From a virus, in IMG/VR virus record IMGVR_UViG_3300033571_005378, positions 1-43,234 of that record: a stretch of 43,234 nt of DNA, one strand, 5' to 3'. The first letter of the stretch is position 1; every line of letters begins with the position of its first letter. The translations under genes were made by a program, and so were the position numbers. The notes beneath the pieces were generated by a model. That model did not search any database. It saw only the letters and a program-made list of their open reading frames with translations, and was not told the DNA's origin. Shown here in pieces: positions 2,052 to 38,408 of the stretch.

Positions 2052-2498
2052 TCAGTCCTCAAGCAGCCTGACTACCTTGTCCCAGTACTTCTCGGTTGCC
2101 TGCTTGAGGTGGCCCTTGGGGCCGCCGTTGTGGACCCGGGCCAGCTTTTCATAGTCGCCATCGATGAGCGCCCGGCGTGCATAACGGTGCCAGTATGCGA
2201 TCATTATGCGCTCGGCGTACCAGCGCGCACGACAACCTTCGTACTCGCCCTTGAGGTCCGGCACCCACTCGACGGCGTCGGACCAGTAGGCGATCCAGAT
2301 TTGGTATGCGCCGATGGCGTTGCCGCCGTCTCCAGTGGCCTCGTCGTTGCCGCCCGACTCGACCTGTCGAATCGCGTCGAGCAACGGGCGCAGTTCCTTG
2401 CGGTACGCATCGATTTGCTCGATGGTGGGGCGCTGCGCGGTGGCGAGGTAGGCCAGAGTCAAAGCGGACAGGATGGCGGCGATCAGATATTGGAACAT
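2052..2498 (-). CDS. Membrane-anchored i-type-like lysozyme (endolysin)
   Basis: Probable peptidoglycan hydrolase of 148 residues. Residues 4-21 are a weakly hydrophobic Ala/Leu helix, as in signal-anchor or SAR endolysins. The domain then shows QVESGGN (Glu47), GDGGNAIGAYQIW (Asp57), YWSDA and HNGGPKG (123-129), the order seen in invertebrate i-type (destabilase-like) lysozymes and in phage proteins often labelled SLT-like transglycosylases. Glu47 and Asp57 are the likely catalytic pair, by analogy. Only one cysteine (C89) is present, unlike animal members. A GGAGGG site sits 5 bases before ATG 2498. It is the last gene of the leftward block, far from the holin candidates near 38.5 kb. Confidence 0.7.
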   Translation of the reverse strand: MFQYLIAAILSALTLAYLATAQRPTIEQIDAYRKELRPLLDAIRQVESGGNDEATGDGGNAIGAYQIWIAYWSDAVEWVPDLKGEYEGCRARWYAERIMIAYWHRYARRALIDGDYEKLARVHNGGPKGHLKQATEKYWDKVVRLLED

Positions 2499-4455: not shown

Positions 4456-4739
4456 TGTTGTTCCTTGAGTTCGTTGTAGGTTCCAATCAGAAGTCGAAGC
4501 GATAGCGCCTTGCCAATAAGCTTGGCGGCAATCAGCCGTTCCTCATGCGAGGTTTCCGGCCTATCGGTGATGCGCGACTTGCGCATGTTGCTGAGTAATA
4601 TCACGCACTCCATGTCGGTCTCGGCGCGCCACTTGTGCGTCATGCCTTGATCGTCGGCCATGCGCCGGACAAACTCCTCCATGCGCATGTCGAGGTGATA
4701 ATCCCAGAACGGCAACTCGTAGATGGGATCAGTGGTCAC
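4452..4739 (-). CDS. Hypothetical protein, 95 aa
   Basis: Acidic, helical protein of unknown function, with the N-terminal segment YELPFWDYHLDMRMEEFVRR and a C-terminal amphipathic helix. It uses a GTG start at 4739 that overlaps the stop of the hammerhead-led gene upstream (GTGA), so its translation probably depends on that gene. No family was recognised. Confidence 0.55.
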   Translation of the reverse strand: MTTDPIYELPFWDYHLDMRMEEFVRRMADDQGMTHKWRAETDMECVILLSNMRKSRITDRPETSHEERLIAAKLIGKALSLRLLIGTYNELKEQQ

Positions 4740-5083
4740 AGGGACTGCTCCTTCAGCGCGTCCTCGCTGCCGTGAAGCTGGAAGGCCAGAAACCCAATCG
4801 CATGGTTGCCTACGTCGTAACCGCAGCCCTCGAACCGAAGGCCCTCTGGGTTGAGGCGGGTACGCGATCCCCAGTCACCGCGCTGGACTTTTGCGCCGAA
4901 GATAAGTACCGCTGCCGAACTGGTGATTTCGTGCAGCTTGTTATCGCAGCAGGCAAACAGACGCACGCGGCGCGAGGTATCGCTGCGCTTGGTGATCAGA
5001 GTGTAGACCGTCGCGCCGGGCTGCTCGCCCAGAATGTTGAGCAAACGCGATTTGTGATGATTGAGCGTGTCGTTGATGTTCAT
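4736..5083 (-). CDS. Hypothetical protein preceded by a hammerhead ribozyme, 115 aa
   Basis: Protein of unknown function starting MNINDTLNHHKSRLL. It has a helical N-terminus, then a beta-rich part (ATVYTLITKR, RRVRLFACCDNK) and a C-terminal helix. The start at ATG 5083 is chosen because it lies seven bases downstream of the hammerhead fold at 5091-5147; longer readings of the frame would run through that structured RNA. There is no Shine-Dalgarno sequence before it. Expression may therefore depend on RNA cleavage or on sequences within the ribozyme, which is inference. Confidence 0.6.
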   Translation of the reverse strand: MNINDTLNHHKSRLLNILGEQPGATVYTLITKRSDTSRRVRLFACCDNKLHEITSSAAVLIFGAKVQRGDWGSRTRLNPEGLRFEGCGYDVGNHAIGFLAFQLHGSEDALKEQSL

Positions 5084-5090
5084 GCTAGTT

Positions 5091-5147
5091 CTCGGTTTCG
5101 GCCTTGGCTGGGCCTCATCAGTGCGCAGCACCACTGCGCATACCGAG
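5091..5147 (-). ncRNA. Type III hammerhead ribozyme (copy 1)
   Basis: Read on the minus strand, every element of a type III hammerhead is present. Stem III is CUCGG (5147-5143) with CCGAG (5095-5091). The cleavage triplet is GUA, with cleavage expected between 5141 and 5140. Stem I is UGCGCA / UGCGCA with loop GUGGUGC. The invariant core is CUGAUGA (5121-5115). Stem II is GGCC / GGCC with loop CAGCCAA, and the second core strand is GAAA (5099-5096). UGG in loop I could pair with CCA in loop II, a possible tertiary contact. It sits between two genes of the leftward operon, seven bases before a start codon. Catalysis is inferred from the match to the known consensus. Confidence 0.9.
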
Positions 5148-5162
5148 CGCCCCGAAGGGCGC
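5147..5162 (-). other. UUCG-capped hairpin after a stop codon
   Basis: On the minus strand GCGCCC-UUCG-GGGCGC forms a 6-bp stem with the very stable C(UUCG)G loop, four bases after the stop of the gene ending at 5167 and touching the first base of the hammerhead. There is no U-tract. It may insulate the ribozyme, stabilise the 3' end of the upstream cleavage product, or cause pausing. Confidence 0.6.
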
Positions 5163-5166
5163 GGAG

Positions 5167-5415
5167 TTAGTTGTCGGGAATGTTGATGCCGTGCTGGGCG
5201 GCAAGCTGCCTGCCAGACTCGCTGAACATTACCCAGTGGCAAAGGCGGTTCTCCTCGTCCTGCTGCGTGGACAGTAGGCCCTTCGTTTTAAGGTCGCTAA
5301 GGTTGCCGCACTGCCTTTTGCTGCCTTCGAACAGCGGGACTCCATTCCAATCCATCGAGTCGCGGGCCAGAGTCAGGAACAAGGCTAGAGAGGCGTGTGT
5401 CAGTTCGGTTGTCAT
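5167..5415 (-). CDS. Hypothetical protein, possible winged-helix, 82 aa
   Basis: The first 70 residues have a helix-helix-wing pattern: ALFLTLARDSMDW, then GNLSDLKTKGLLSTQQD, then a strand pair ending WVMFSESGRQLAA. This resembles small winged-helix proteins used by phages to read ligand or DNA, but the resemblance is by pattern only. Start ATG 5415 has only a weak purine-rich upstream region (GAAAGAA). It is flanked on both sides by GCGCCC-N4-GGGCGC hairpins, an arrangement not seen around the other genes of the block. Confidence 0.55.
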   Translation of the reverse strand: MTTELTHASLALFLTLARDSMDWNGVPLFEGSKRQCGNLSDLKTKGLLSTQQDEENRLCHWVMFSESGRQLAAQHGINIPDN

Positions 5416-5431
5416 CGTTGTTTTTCTTTCT

Positions 5432-5447
5432 GCGCCCCAAAGGGCGC
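5432..5447 (-). other. Second GCGCCC/GGGCGC hairpin after a stop codon
   Basis: The same stem as at 5147-5162, with loop UUUG on the minus strand, placed four bases after the stop of the gene ending at 5452. The repeated position directly after a stop suggests a function such as mRNA 3'-end stabilisation or processing. There is no U-tract for intrinsic termination. Confidence 0.55.
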
Positions 5448-5451
5448 GGCG

Positions 5452-5739
5452 TTATCGTGCGTCGCTGGGCCTCCAGAGGTAGTCCAGCTTGCCGTAGTAA
5501 CTCAGGCAGCCGTCGCCATCGACGCCGGGCAGGCCACGCTCATCGAGCGCCTGCCATGCAACCAGCACGCAGTCTGGCGCAAACTTGCGAGCGCCCTGCT
5601 GCTGGCAGTTGCGCTTGGCTTCAAGGATTGTCGGTCCGCGTCCCCAGCGACCACACGCCGTGATCACGACGTAGGTGCCGCCTTCGCGGCCATGGAACTG
5701 AGAGAGGAAGCACGCTTTGGTTTTCTTCGTTGCGGTCAT
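5452..5739 (-). CDS. Hypothetical protein, 95 aa
   Basis: Protein of unknown function with a basic N-terminus (MTATKKTKACF), a strand pair (TYVVITACGRWGRG), a helix containing AKRNCQQQGARKF and a glycine-rich C-terminal part. Four cysteines are scattered, not in a zinc pattern. There is no evident ribosome site before ATG 5739, only an AT-rich leader, so the start is moderately certain. It lies inside the leftward operon. Confidence 0.5.
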   Translation of the reverse strand: MTATKKTKACFLSQFHGREGGTYVVITACGRWGRGPTILEAKRNCQQQGARKFAPDCVLVAWQALDERGLPGVDGDGCLSYYGKLDYLWRPSDAR

Positions 5740-5770
5740 GGAAATTTAGGGGGTAGTTAGTTTTGGTTTT

Positions 5771-5920
5771 CTACGTTTTGTCTTTGGCCACGAAATCGGT
5801 TCCGCACTGGCCGCACTGCAAGAACAGCAGCTTGCCGATGTTGCCGTACTTGGCATGGTCGTAGTGGCCGCATGCTGGGCAGTAGATATCGGGAATGGTG
5901 ATTTGGTTATCGTCGGTCAT
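5771..5920 (-). CDS. Zinc-ribbon microprotein, 49 aa
   Basis: A 49-residue protein with two knuckles, CPAC (C14, C17) and CGQC (C36, C39), a classic rubredoxin-like or ribbon metal site. The start at ATG 5920 is supported by GGAGGGT eight bases upstream; the longer open frame has no support. The specific role is unknown. The stop of the upstream 46-residue gene lies just before its start, so they are coupled. Confidence 0.6.
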   Translation of the reverse strand: MTDDNQITIPDIYCPACGHYDHAKYGNIGKLLFLQCGQCGTDFVAKDKT

Positions 5921-5921
5921 T

Positions 5922-6062
5922 TTAGAACCCTCCGGTAAGTTGGATAACAAAGCCGCCGTCCTTATCGTCGCTGGCCTCGAAGGTGAGGCCCTCCTGTACG
6001 AACTTGGCGATAAGGGCTGCGAATACGTCAATCGACGCGACGGTGATGGTTTGCTGGCTCAT
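5922..6062 (-). CDS. Small hypothetical protein, 46 aa
   Basis: A 46-residue frame starting at ATG 6062 and ending at TAA 5922-5924, beginning MSQQTITVASIDVF and ending LTGGF, with one amphipathic helix and flanking strands. It exactly fills the gap between its neighbours, stopping two bases before the start of the zinc-ribbon gene, and has AGAAG upstream. Function is unknown. Filling a tight operon slot supports it as a real gene despite its size. Confidence 0.55.
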   Translation of the reverse strand: MSQQTITVASIDVFAALIAKFVQEGLTFEASDDKDGGFVIQLTGGF

Positions 6063-6064
6063 GG

Positions 6065-6337
6065 TTACTTCTTCTGGTTATCAAGGATCTGCTTGACGGT
6101 CTCGTTGAGTTGCTGCTGCTGGAGGAAAACGTCGATGGCGTCTTCGATATCGTTGCCTGAGATGTAGTTGCGGCTGCCAAGCTTGCACTCAAGGTTATCG
6201 TTCAAGGCGCAGGCTAGATCGCGAGCCATTTCCGCGACTTGCCAACGCTCGGGCTTGATGTTGGTGCCGCTGTACGCGGCGAGCAGGACACTGAAGAGGC
6301 GGTGGGAGGTGACGGTCGTGATGGAGTAGTAGTGCAT
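6065..6337 (-). CDS. Hypothetical protein, 90 aa
   Basis: Mostly helical protein of unknown function with the central segment WQVAEMARDLACALNDNL and a glutamine-rich C-terminal helix (FLQQQQLNETVKQIL). Its stop lies two bases before the start of the 46-residue gene. No motif is recognised. It is the second gene of the leftward operon after the hammerhead-led first gene. Confidence 0.55.
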   Translation of the reverse strand: MHYYSITTVTSHRLFSVLLAAYSGTNIKPERWQVAEMARDLACALNDNLECKLGSRNYISGNDIEDAIDVFLQQQQLNETVKQILDNQKK

Positions 6338-6357
6338 GTTGTTGCTTTCGTTATGGA

Positions 6358-6624
6358 TCAGAGTTTGTTGGTAATGCGTTCGACAAGTTGCTGGGCCTTG
6401 GTGATTCGGTCGGCTTTGGCCTTAGTCACCGTGGAGCGGATAAACGCGCCATCCCACTCGACATACTCGCGGATGGTGATGACGTTGCCGTCGATGTTGA
6501 TGGTGAACTTCCTGCTCTTGTGCTCGCAGCGGTAAGCGCGGCGGCTAGGGTCGCGACCGTTAAGCACGGCGCTGGTGAAGGTGAGCGGCTCAGGGGTAAA
6601 CACTGGAAGGTTCATGGTTATCAT
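6358..6624 (-). CDS. First gene of the leftward operon, hypothetical, 88 aa
   Basis: Protein of unknown function starting MITMNLPVF, with a basic middle (SRRAYRCEHKSRKFTINIDGN is the boundary region) and a beta-rich core followed by a C-terminal helix. Two ATGs are possible (6624 and 6615). The first is preferred because its distance from the upstream hammerhead (six bases) matches that at 5083. No Shine-Dalgarno is visible before either. It is transcribed from the promoter at 6878-6905 behind a leader of roughly 240 bases that contains the second hammerhead. Confidence 0.55.
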   Translation of the reverse strand: MITMNLPVFTPEPLTFTSAVLNGRDPSRRAYRCEHKSRKFTINIDGNVITIREYVEWDGAFIRSTVTKAKADRITKAQQLVERITNKL

Positions 6625-6630
6625 CGGGTA

Positions 6631-6687
6631 GTGGTTTCGGCCTTGTCCGAGGCCATCGTCAGTGGTGCGCTCTACGCACCAGACCAC
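6631..6687 (-). ncRNA. Type III hammerhead ribozyme-like RNA (copy 2)
   Basis: On the minus strand: stem III GUGG (6687-6684) with CCAC (6634-6631), cleavage triplet GUC with the cut expected between 6682 and 6681, stem I UGGUGCG / CGCACCA with loop UAGAG, core CUGACGA (6662-6656), stem II GGCC / GGCC with loop UCGGACAA, and core GAAA (6638-6635). One difference from the consensus is an extra U (6655) between the core and stem II, which may reduce or not affect activity. It lies in the leader of the operon, six bases before the first start codon. Confidence 0.75.
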
Positions 6688-6877
6688 ATTCGGGAGTTTG
6701 CGGACTCGCGTCCGTTCCCCACTACCTGCGCCCTTTGCTTCGGGTCGTTGGCCTGACTGTCGGGTTGGTCGGTCGGGCGCTACTGTCGATTGCGCCCTGC
6801 GGTCCGGCAGGCAGGTTCAGGTCGTTCGCACTGTCAAAGATCGGTGTCGTTCGCGGCGTTCCGCGCTCGATGCCCCT

Positions 6878-6905
6878 ATTATACACACCATCGGCAGTGA
6901 GCCAA
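6878..6905 (-). promoter_or_regulatory. Leftward early promoter
   Basis: On the minus strand TTGGCT (6905-6900) and a perfect TATAAT (6883-6878) are 16 bases apart, a good sigma-70 promoter. Transcription would start near 6871 and run through the hammerhead at 6631-6687 into the leftward operon. Confidence 0.65.
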
Positions 6906-25891: not shown

Positions 25892-27739
25892 ATGGTTCAA
25901 GTTCCTAGATTTACCTCTGTTGATCTTCAGCCGATTCAGATGCCTGCGGTCCAAGCGCCGCGCACGATCCCGATGGAGGATCAGACCCCCCGAGAGATTT
26001 CTCAGATGGGGGCGGCAACTGGCGAGCTGGCGCAGGCCGCGTTCCGCATGAATGCGTTGCAGATGCGGCAGCAGAACCAGCTTGACGATGCTGCGGCCAA
26101 GGAGCTGGACAACCTCTTCGCCGATTCCATTCGCAAGATTGTTTACGACCCGAAAGAAGGGTACGAGGCAAAGCTTGGGCGTGGGGCCATCGAGTCGCGG
26201 GACAAGGTGTTCAAGGACATCGAAGAGGCCCGCAAGAAGCTGGAAGAACGCGCCCAGAACCCAGTTCAGCGTCGATTGGTTCGGGATGCGTTTACGCGAA
26301 GGACCATGGCTGCAACCATGGCCGTTGATCAGCATTATGCAAAGCAGTCTGAGATTTATGCAATTGGCTCTGCCGAAGCACGAATCCAAAGCTCGTTCGA
26401 GGACTACCGTCGCAACATCTCGAAGCGCAACTTCGCCGCCGCCACGGGCAACTGGAAGACCGGGATGGACGAGGTCAACGCCATCGCCGACCTGCGTGGC
26501 GTCAGCGATGACGTTCGCAAGCAGATGCTGGCTTCGGCGTCAGATACCGCTCACGCAAAGATGTTCGACGATCTCGCGCGCGGCGATAGGCATGACGATG
26601 CCGTCCAGTACTACGACTTCGTGAAGGGCCGCGAGGGCGAAGTGTCGCCGGATACGTTGGCCCGCATGGGCGAGGCGGTTACCACCATCAACGAAACCAA
26701 GATGGTCAAGAGCCTGCTTGAAAGCCCAGAGATGTTCAACGCATCGCGAGACGAACAGTTGAACAAGGTTCACGGCTGGCTTTCGTCGGGCAAGATCAAC
26801 GAACGTCAAGCCGTCATTATGGGTGATGCCGTTAACCGCATGAGCGAAAACCAGCGGCAGCAACGCGCCCAACTCTCAGCCATGGCGCTACAGGATGCTT
26901 TGTCGCAAATGCAGGCCAAAAGCGGCCAGCTTTCGGACATTAATCCACTGACTCAGAACCAACTTCGCAGCACGGGCATGGATCAGGTGTTGTTGAATTA
27001 TGATCGCGCTAAGAAAGACTGGGATACAAACAGCCTTGTGCTTTCCAAATTGGAAAACAACCCAGAGCAGCTAACTAATTTAAGCCCGGAAGAGATTTTC
27101 GTCCGTTATCGCGGATCGCTTAACAGCCGCGATTTTAATTATGTGATGGCTTTGCGGGCGAGGATGACTGGAGATTTATCGCTTGAGCAGCGCAGCCTAA
27201 TTACTTGGCGCGAAGAGCTTAACTCTAAGCTTGACGAAATGAGGCTTACCGAGCCTAGTGAAAGGCGCTGGTATATCGAAGAATTAGATAGGCAGGTTCA
27301 GCGCATTGAAGGCGGCGTCCTTAAAAATTCCCGCCAGCTAACTAACGAGGAAATTAAAAAAGTTGTTAACGACATGTTTGTTCAGAAATCGAGTTCTGTT
27401 GAGGTTTTGAAGCAGGGAGAAGGAACTTACGAAAAGCTTCGTCGTGGCGAAGACGATCTTGGGGCTTTTGTGAAAAACCCAGAGACCGGAAAGATGCAGT
27501 GGATTCCTCTTTCTTCAATTCCACCCAGCAAACTTGAAGATATTAAGCGATACATTGATCAAAACAATTTCTCTAGCCCGTTGCGTGGCGGCAGCTACAT
27601 GCGTCAAGATGAACAAACTTGGGTAGAGACGTACATTCAGACAGAACTTGATAATGGCAGGTTTAGTTGGCAAAAGCCTACACCTCCTCGTCGCGAGAGC
27701 AGAACGTTTAGGGGCTGGCCTACCTACAATCGCTATTAA
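25892..27739 (+). CDS. Internal virion protein (gp15-like)
   Basis: A 615-residue, largely helical protein without transmembrane segments, beginning MVQVPRFTSVDLQPIQ. Residues about 40-330 are regular long helices, similar in style to T7 gp15, which forms the periplasmic part of the ejection tunnel. Family membership is inferred from size, helicity and gene order; sequence identity to T7 gp15 cannot be judged by eye. The last 250 codons (from about 27000) are clearly richer in A/T than the first part, suggesting a different origin for the C-terminal half. Confidence 0.65.
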   Translation: MVQVPRFTSVDLQPIQMPAVQAPRTIPMEDQTPREISQMGAATGELAQAAFRMNALQMRQQNQLDDAAAKELDNLFADSIRKIVYDPKEGYEAKLGRGAIESRDKVFKDIEEARKKLEERAQNPVQRRLVRDAFTRRTMAATMAVDQHYAKQSEIYAIGSAEARIQSSFEDYRRNISKRNFAAATGNWKTGMDEVNAIADLRGVSDDVRKQMLASASDTAHAKMFDDLARGDRHDDAVQYYDFVKGREGEVSPDTLARMGEAVTTINETKMVKSLLESPEMFNASRDEQLNKVHGWLSSGKINERQAVIMGDAVNRMSENQRQQRAQLSAMALQDALSQMQAKSGQLSDINPLTQNQLRSTGMDQVLLNYDRAKKDWDTNSLVLSKLENNPEQLTNLSPEEIFVRYRGSLNSRDFNYVMALRARMTGDLSLEQRSLITWREELNSKLDEMRLTEPSERRWYIEELDRQVQRIEGGVLKNSRQLTNEEIKKVVNDMFVQKSSSVEVLKQGEGTYEKLRRGEDDLGAFVKNPETGKMQWIPLSSIPPSKLEDIKRYIDQNNFSSPLRGGSYMRQDEQTWVETYIQTELDNGRFSWQKPTPPRRESRTFRGWPTYNRY

Positions 27740-27755
27740 CAATATAAGGAATCAC

Positions 27756-38408
<10,653 letters not shown>

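Follow-up and report, generated by a model that had tools for sequence, protein, structure and literature searches.

Two predicted type III hammerhead ribozymes, HHR1 and HHR2, probably serve as mRNA punctuation in the leftward operon of a podovirus-like phage, represented here by a 43,234-nt stretch of DNA (the window). Computation establishes the identity and position of these hammerheads, the hairpins upstream of them, the layout of the operon and the recurrence of the arrangement in other phages.

HHR1 and its flanking genes

HHR1 occupies 5091..5147 on the minus strand and was recognized by a descriptor, by its fold and by covariance models. Read from 5147 to 5091, it is CUCGGUA|UGCGCAG-UGGUG-CUGCGCA-CUGAUGA-GGCC-CAGCCAA-GGCC-GAAA-CCGAG, or CUCGGUA|UGCGCAGUGGUGCUGCGCACUGAUGAGGCCCAGCCAAGGCCGAAACCGAG without the element breaks, the bar marking the predicted cut between 5141 and 5140. 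The first-pass annotation had claimed CUGAUGA, stem II, GAAA, stem I, stem III and GUA in the correct order on this strand, a complete invariant core and cleavage at 5141/5140; each element is present, no core base is absent from CUGAUGA, GAAA or the GUA triplet, and the site predicted here is the same. Stem III is open and 5 bp long (5147-5143 with 5095-5091), stem I is closed with 7-8 bp, stem II is closed with 4 bp, and UGGU of loop I can form four pairs, one of them a wobble, with GCCA of loop II. Minimum-energy folding of the stretch gives the hammerhead, together with a hairpin directly upstream.

Against the Rfam family RF00008, HHR1 scored 41.1 bits (E = 1.1e-5 over the whole window), the top result of 4227 Rfam families. 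It resembles this family in having the same core, an open third stem beside two closed ones and a GUH triplet, and perhaps in loop I-loop II complementarity, but falls below the curated gathering score of 48.5 bits, at which threshold the window has no Rfam match. This score is a curation cutoff rather than a biochemical feature, and the hammerheads of ten other phage loci also miss it. A phage covariance model built on 61 hammerheads from other viral contigs, with no window sequence in its training set, and applied unfiltered to the entire window, gave 53.0 bits (E = 2.2e-13). The earlier suggestion that a covariance search be used as a check thus found both models in favour by E value, and only the gathering score against. 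Together, these data support, at the level of sequence, the assignment of HHR1 as a canonical type III hammerhead flanked by two phage genes of its own strand.

The placement between protein genes agrees with what had been described before. The upstream gene (5167..5415, minus strand, 82 aa) has its stop at 5167 and homologues of unknown function in phages phiXF1 and QdP_Psa3, and the downstream gene (4736..5083, minus strand, 115 aa, no family match) begins with the ATG at 5083-5081. The 7-nt spacer between stem III and this ATG and the missing Shine-Dalgarno (SD) sequence, both part of the earlier description, were found again, with nothing better than GAG before the start, itself within HHR1 stem III. 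No promoter-like site was found near HHR1 by a consensus scan. Protein searches of viral contigs with both flanking genes returned an identical contig only; the HHR1 sequence itself was found only in this phage and one identical contig, without a divergent orthologue, and a search for relatives of the locus at the DNA level brought up one short phage match only. Between the upstream gene and the ribozyme stands hairpin 1 (5147..5162, minus strand), GCGCCC-UUCG-GGGCGC, with a 6-bp GC-rich stem and a UUCG loop followed by UCGGUAUG; it adjoins stem III, with C5147 common to both.

HHR2 and the leftward operon

The phage covariance model also identified a second predicted type III hammerhead, HHR2 (6631..6687, minus strand), with 35.1 bits and E = 4.3e-8 over the whole window, the next-best site having E = 0.6. 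Its sequence is GUGGUC|UGGUGCG-UAGAG-CGCACCA-CUGACGA-U-GGCCU-CGGACA-AGGCC-GAAA-CCAC, with the core CUGACGA/GAAA, the triplet GUC and a predicted cut between 6682 and 6681. The C at position 7 is permitted by the hammerhead consensus. HHR2 was missed by our first descriptor because an exact CUGAUGA core joined directly to stem II was required, and it differs from RF00008 in carrying an extra U between A9 and stem II. Seven other survey loci among the matches listed also have a single inserted base here. The CChMVd(+) viroid hammerhead likewise has an extra base between A9 and G10.1, where a U raises trans-cleavage 3-4-fold over the natural A (PMC3705267), although that ribozyme acts in viroid replication, not on phage mRNA.

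An orthologue of HHR2 was sought in 15 records, of which one is an identical copy of the window phage contig and 14 are TerL relatives, and was found in contig L251 (287-343, minus), whose TerL is 71% identical. It lies on the same strand and 2.25 kb upstream of TerL, as compared with 2.2 kb for HHR2. Between the two sequences, 4 of the 7 stem I pairs have changed on both sides while 16 of 16 pairs are kept, as is the extra U after A9. Slid registers left 31-50% of cells paired, and 38 of 500 shuffles equalled the observed pairing, a weak control that compares two sequences only. Most of the TerL relatives searched have no hammerhead, and none was found in phages phiXF1, MW202640 and MW202722; because of this absence from most relatives, the element would appear to be dispensable over evolution.

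HHR2 also has its hairpin: hairpin 2 (6692..6719, minus strand; core CGGAC-GCGA-GUCCG at 6701-6714) ends 4 nt short of stem III; upstream of the L251 orthologue there is a larger hairpin, ending 8 nt before its stem III. In the minimum-energy fold of HHR2, stem III is displaced by a competing 8-bp helix. This helix, GGUAGUGG/CCACUACC, pairs approximately 6725-6732 with 6627-6634 on the minus strand and was not seen in L251.

HHR2 and HHR1 belong to one leftward operon, HHR2 being in its leader. A promoter-like TTGGCT-16-TATAAT (6878..6905, minus strand), a consensus match, precedes the HHR2 cut by about 200 nt, and the first gene of the operon (6358..6624, minus strand) starts 6 nt, or alternatively 15 nt, after HHR2 stem III. 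The RNA between the two predicted cuts (5141..6681, minus strand) would be 1541 nt long and carries about five small ORFs (6358-6624, 6065-6337, 5771-5923, 5452-5739 and 5167-5415). The first-pass annotation was therefore correct on HHR1 and incomplete elsewhere, lacking HHR2, the hairpin at 5147-5162 and a recurrent phage module.

The leader also holds a boxA-like motif, GATCTTTGACA (6832..6842, minus strand), seen in the L251 leader as well, near 594 (minus). The boxA-like TCTTTGACA occurs upstream of hammerheads in L028, L141, L097 and L429, in some of them 10-20 nt before stem III; within 60 nt upstream it is enriched but rare (3 of the 94 hammerheads listed versus 0.05% at random). A tie to Nus-type antitermination would be a guess, and the motif was dropped from the explanation, being rare and with its long form not found in six genomes. 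Elsewhere in the window, the structural region contains a 3586-codon open frame (27648-38408, plus strand), a similar giant gene being annotated as a crystallin beta/gamma motif protein in the relatives MW202640 and MW202722, and 2052-2498 (minus strand) encodes a Destabilase-like protein (Pfam PF05497) that is possibly the lysozyme of the phage.

Hairpins and start codons beside phage hammerheads

Three exact-pattern scans of viral contigs yielded at least 94 non-redundant hammerheads passing a strict descriptor (every core base; at least 4 bp in stem I and at least 3 bp in each of stems II and III). The patterns cover GUA and GUC triplets, G10.1-C11.1 and two stem III variants; since they sample only part of sequence space, the survey gives no abundance. 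Covariation among the survey sequences was left out as evidence because they had been selected for pairing. The flank statistics, on the other hand, are not built in, since selection fixed the core and two to three stem bases and not the flanks; for these statistics, clade structure was corrected by a similarity filter only.

Of the 157 distinct hammerheads listed, 80% are followed, no more than 40 nt after stem III, by an ATG that opens a frame of 45 codons or more; the figure is 17-19% at random positions and 8% on the antisense strand. Similarly, 40 of 94 hammerheads listed (43%) have a perfect hairpin of 6 bp or more whose end falls between -4 and +3 of stem III, against 42 of 527 other intergenic gene starts (8%) and 6.4% of random positions (Fisher p = 2e-15); the remaining 57% of those listed have no perfect 6-bp hairpin at stem III. 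As the hairpin rule had been fixed after viewing examples, both tests were repeated on model-only hammerheads with the interval shifted by one base. In this set, 62.5% had a start codon within 40 nt (p = 5e-12) and 19 of 59 had the hairpin versus 7.3% at random (p = 2e-8), a partial replication in that the loci are among those gathered earlier and some of the weaker matches are type I hammerheads. At 67 of 89 survey loci among the matches listed, hammerhead and upstream gene share a strand. Contigs with several strict hammerheads carry them on one common strand, 0.3-2.3 kb apart (median 867 nt). In 29% of survey hammerheads among the matches listed, loops I and II could form three or more consecutive Watson-Crick pairs, versus 14% with loops shuffled.

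Several individual loci deserve mention. A nearly identical hairpin core, GTGTCTTCAAAGACAC, precedes different hammerheads in L137, L149, L150, L180, L185, L194 and L230, loci with AT-rich leaders and no SD; its recurrence perhaps reflects one phage lineage or a spreading module. The match in L006 near 339 (minus) was set aside from the type III set, since type I is the better reading of it; by eye, this site and one in L428 (Rhizobium phage TRX32-1) near 801 are probable type I hammerheads lying between phage genes. Locus L429 is Rhizobium phage RHEph01, in which a type III-like hammerhead (E = 1.5e-12) that carries no annotation lies at JX483873.1:660-714 (plus), before gp003 and overlapping the doubtful antisense ORF gp002. 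Being a named and isolated phage, RHEph01 offers a practical test system for the hammerhead.

Probable message punctuation, alternatives and precedents

From this arrangement we infer cleavage in cells, stabilization of the RNA and an effect on translation. Transcription would start at the predicted promoter near 6880, HHR2 would remove about 200 nt of leader, and the HHR1 cut would separate the fifth and sixth genes. Each cut would leave an upstream RNA ending in a tight hairpin and a few bases with a 2',3'-cyclic phosphate, guarded from 3' exonucleases; for HHR1 this 3' end would be hairpin-CUCGGUA with the cyclic phosphate. The downstream mRNA would begin at stem I, that is with a blunt 5'-terminal hairpin bearing a 5'-OH, and would be guarded from 5'-end-dependent decay. 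In bacteria, mRNA decay by 3' exonucleases is slowed where the message ends in a hairpin, and RNase E enters less easily at a 5' hairpin or a 5'-OH, and it is for these reasons that mRNA punctuation is favoured, although a 5'-OH can speed decay in some bacteria, as seen with the glmS ribozyme and RNase J. Cutting may also free the 3' strand of stem III, CCGAG, and open the bases before the start codon, such that CCGAGAACUAGC before the AUG would turn single stranded after the HHR1 cut. The cleaved HHR1 3' product is predicted to fold with its 5' hairpin blunt and its start region open. Exposure for translation could be an added effect where the start codon is close to stem III.

Such exposure could instead be the main function, with HHR1 acting as a conditional switch, not as constitutive punctuation, in which cutting exposes or hides the bases before a start codon without SD. 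The sole SD-like bases, GAG, do lie within stem III and would be single stranded once cut, and 12 of the 80 start codons listed are within 8 nt of stem III, 3 of these 12 having a 4-base SD. However, most start codons among the matches listed are 10-30 nt downstream, outside the ribozyme, a 4-base SD is commoner at hammerhead-linked than at control starts (54% versus 25%, among the matches listed), and the short loops carry no ligand-binding or expansion domain, so that we regard a switch as unlikely. It is considerably less likely still that hairpin 1 is an ordinary terminator with the ribozyme as an incidental neighbour: its GC-rich 6-bp stem and UUCG loop come directly after a stop codon and resemble the stem of a terminator, but it has no U-tract, a terminator scan made no call, the 7 nt after survey hairpins contain 28% T among the matches listed, and the 3' end of the hairpin tracks the position of stem III across unrelated contigs.

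The two same-strand hammerheads bracket a five-gene block, a paired layout that recurs on other contigs, and the predicted 5'-OH and 2',3'-cyclic phosphate ends would suit RtcB-like joining of the excised 1541-nt RNA into a circular multi-gene mRNA. Against this highly improbable outcome, the hairpin at the 3' end appears built for a linear end, and Perreault et al. (PMC3088659) looked among tandem phage hammerheads for products that were circular or spliced and found none. It is equally improbable that HHR1 is an inactive chance or decayed hammerhead, even though consensus matches arise randomly in large data and 4 of 18 consensus hammerheads were inactive in the tests of Perreault et al. (PMC3088659), since the strict descriptor gave 1 match in 1500 window-sized order-3 Markov windows searched on both strands, yet the window has a full-consensus HHR1 and a conserved HHR2, and stretches with the same DNA pattern passed the descriptor in 55 of 118 viral but 4 of 118 bacterial-genome cases among the matches listed.

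Punctuation by hammerheads would not be without precedent. Since 2011, hammerheads have been described from phages and prophages (PMC3088659), and all types, tandem ones framing genes and the idea of mRNA processing are to be found in the published accounts (PMC3088659, PMC7761336). In haloviruses HF1 and HF2, the HHphage hammerhead lies 13 nt upstream of a helicase start, with an mRNA 5' end mapped at most 3 nt from the cut (PMC3088659). HHR1 and HHR2 similarly lie just before a phage gene start, at 7 and 6 nt, and HHR2 too precedes the first gene of an operon, whereas HHphage has a variant core and an archaeal host, and an abutting hairpin is not noted in the part available (PMC3088659). The prophage tandem hammerheads (Perreault et al. 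2011) likewise frame single genes or gene blocks, several together, whereas here the setting is a podovirus-like contig and the start-codon and hairpin rules were measured across contigs. Bacterial hammerheads and twisters also occur near Mu-like phage genes, as cited in PMC10085705, the reason for the hammerhead association being described there as still unknown.

HHR1 alone adds another member to the known phage hammerheads; what we rate as new in the module is that a hairpin abuts the ribozyme, that two copies are paired and that the core carries an additional base. No description of the abutting-hairpin rule or of a measured start-codon rule was found in a literature made up of open-access papers with few subscription papers or supplementary alignments. 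In the engineered RiboJ insulator, a type III hammerhead just upstream of the ribosome-binding site gives a defined 5' end. Its hairpin is downstream of the ribozyme, whereas the arrangement described here is natural with the hairpin upstream; if our reading is right, the phage module would be a natural counterpart of this insulator.

Whether many phages share a tripartite module, consisting of a protective 3'-end hairpin, a type III hammerhead and the start of the next gene, we consider evenly balanced. If they do, it would replace terminator-plus-promoter pairs and split polycistronic transcripts into separately stabilized messages, and annotation pipelines would miss it because the Rfam cutoff rejects such hammerheads. 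The rule of hairpin, hammerhead and start on one strand, repeated along an operon, yields the testable claim that the ribozyme defines adjacent message ends. From a broader point of view, phages would, if this is right, routinely use catalytic RNA in gene expression, a use that current annotation overlooks.
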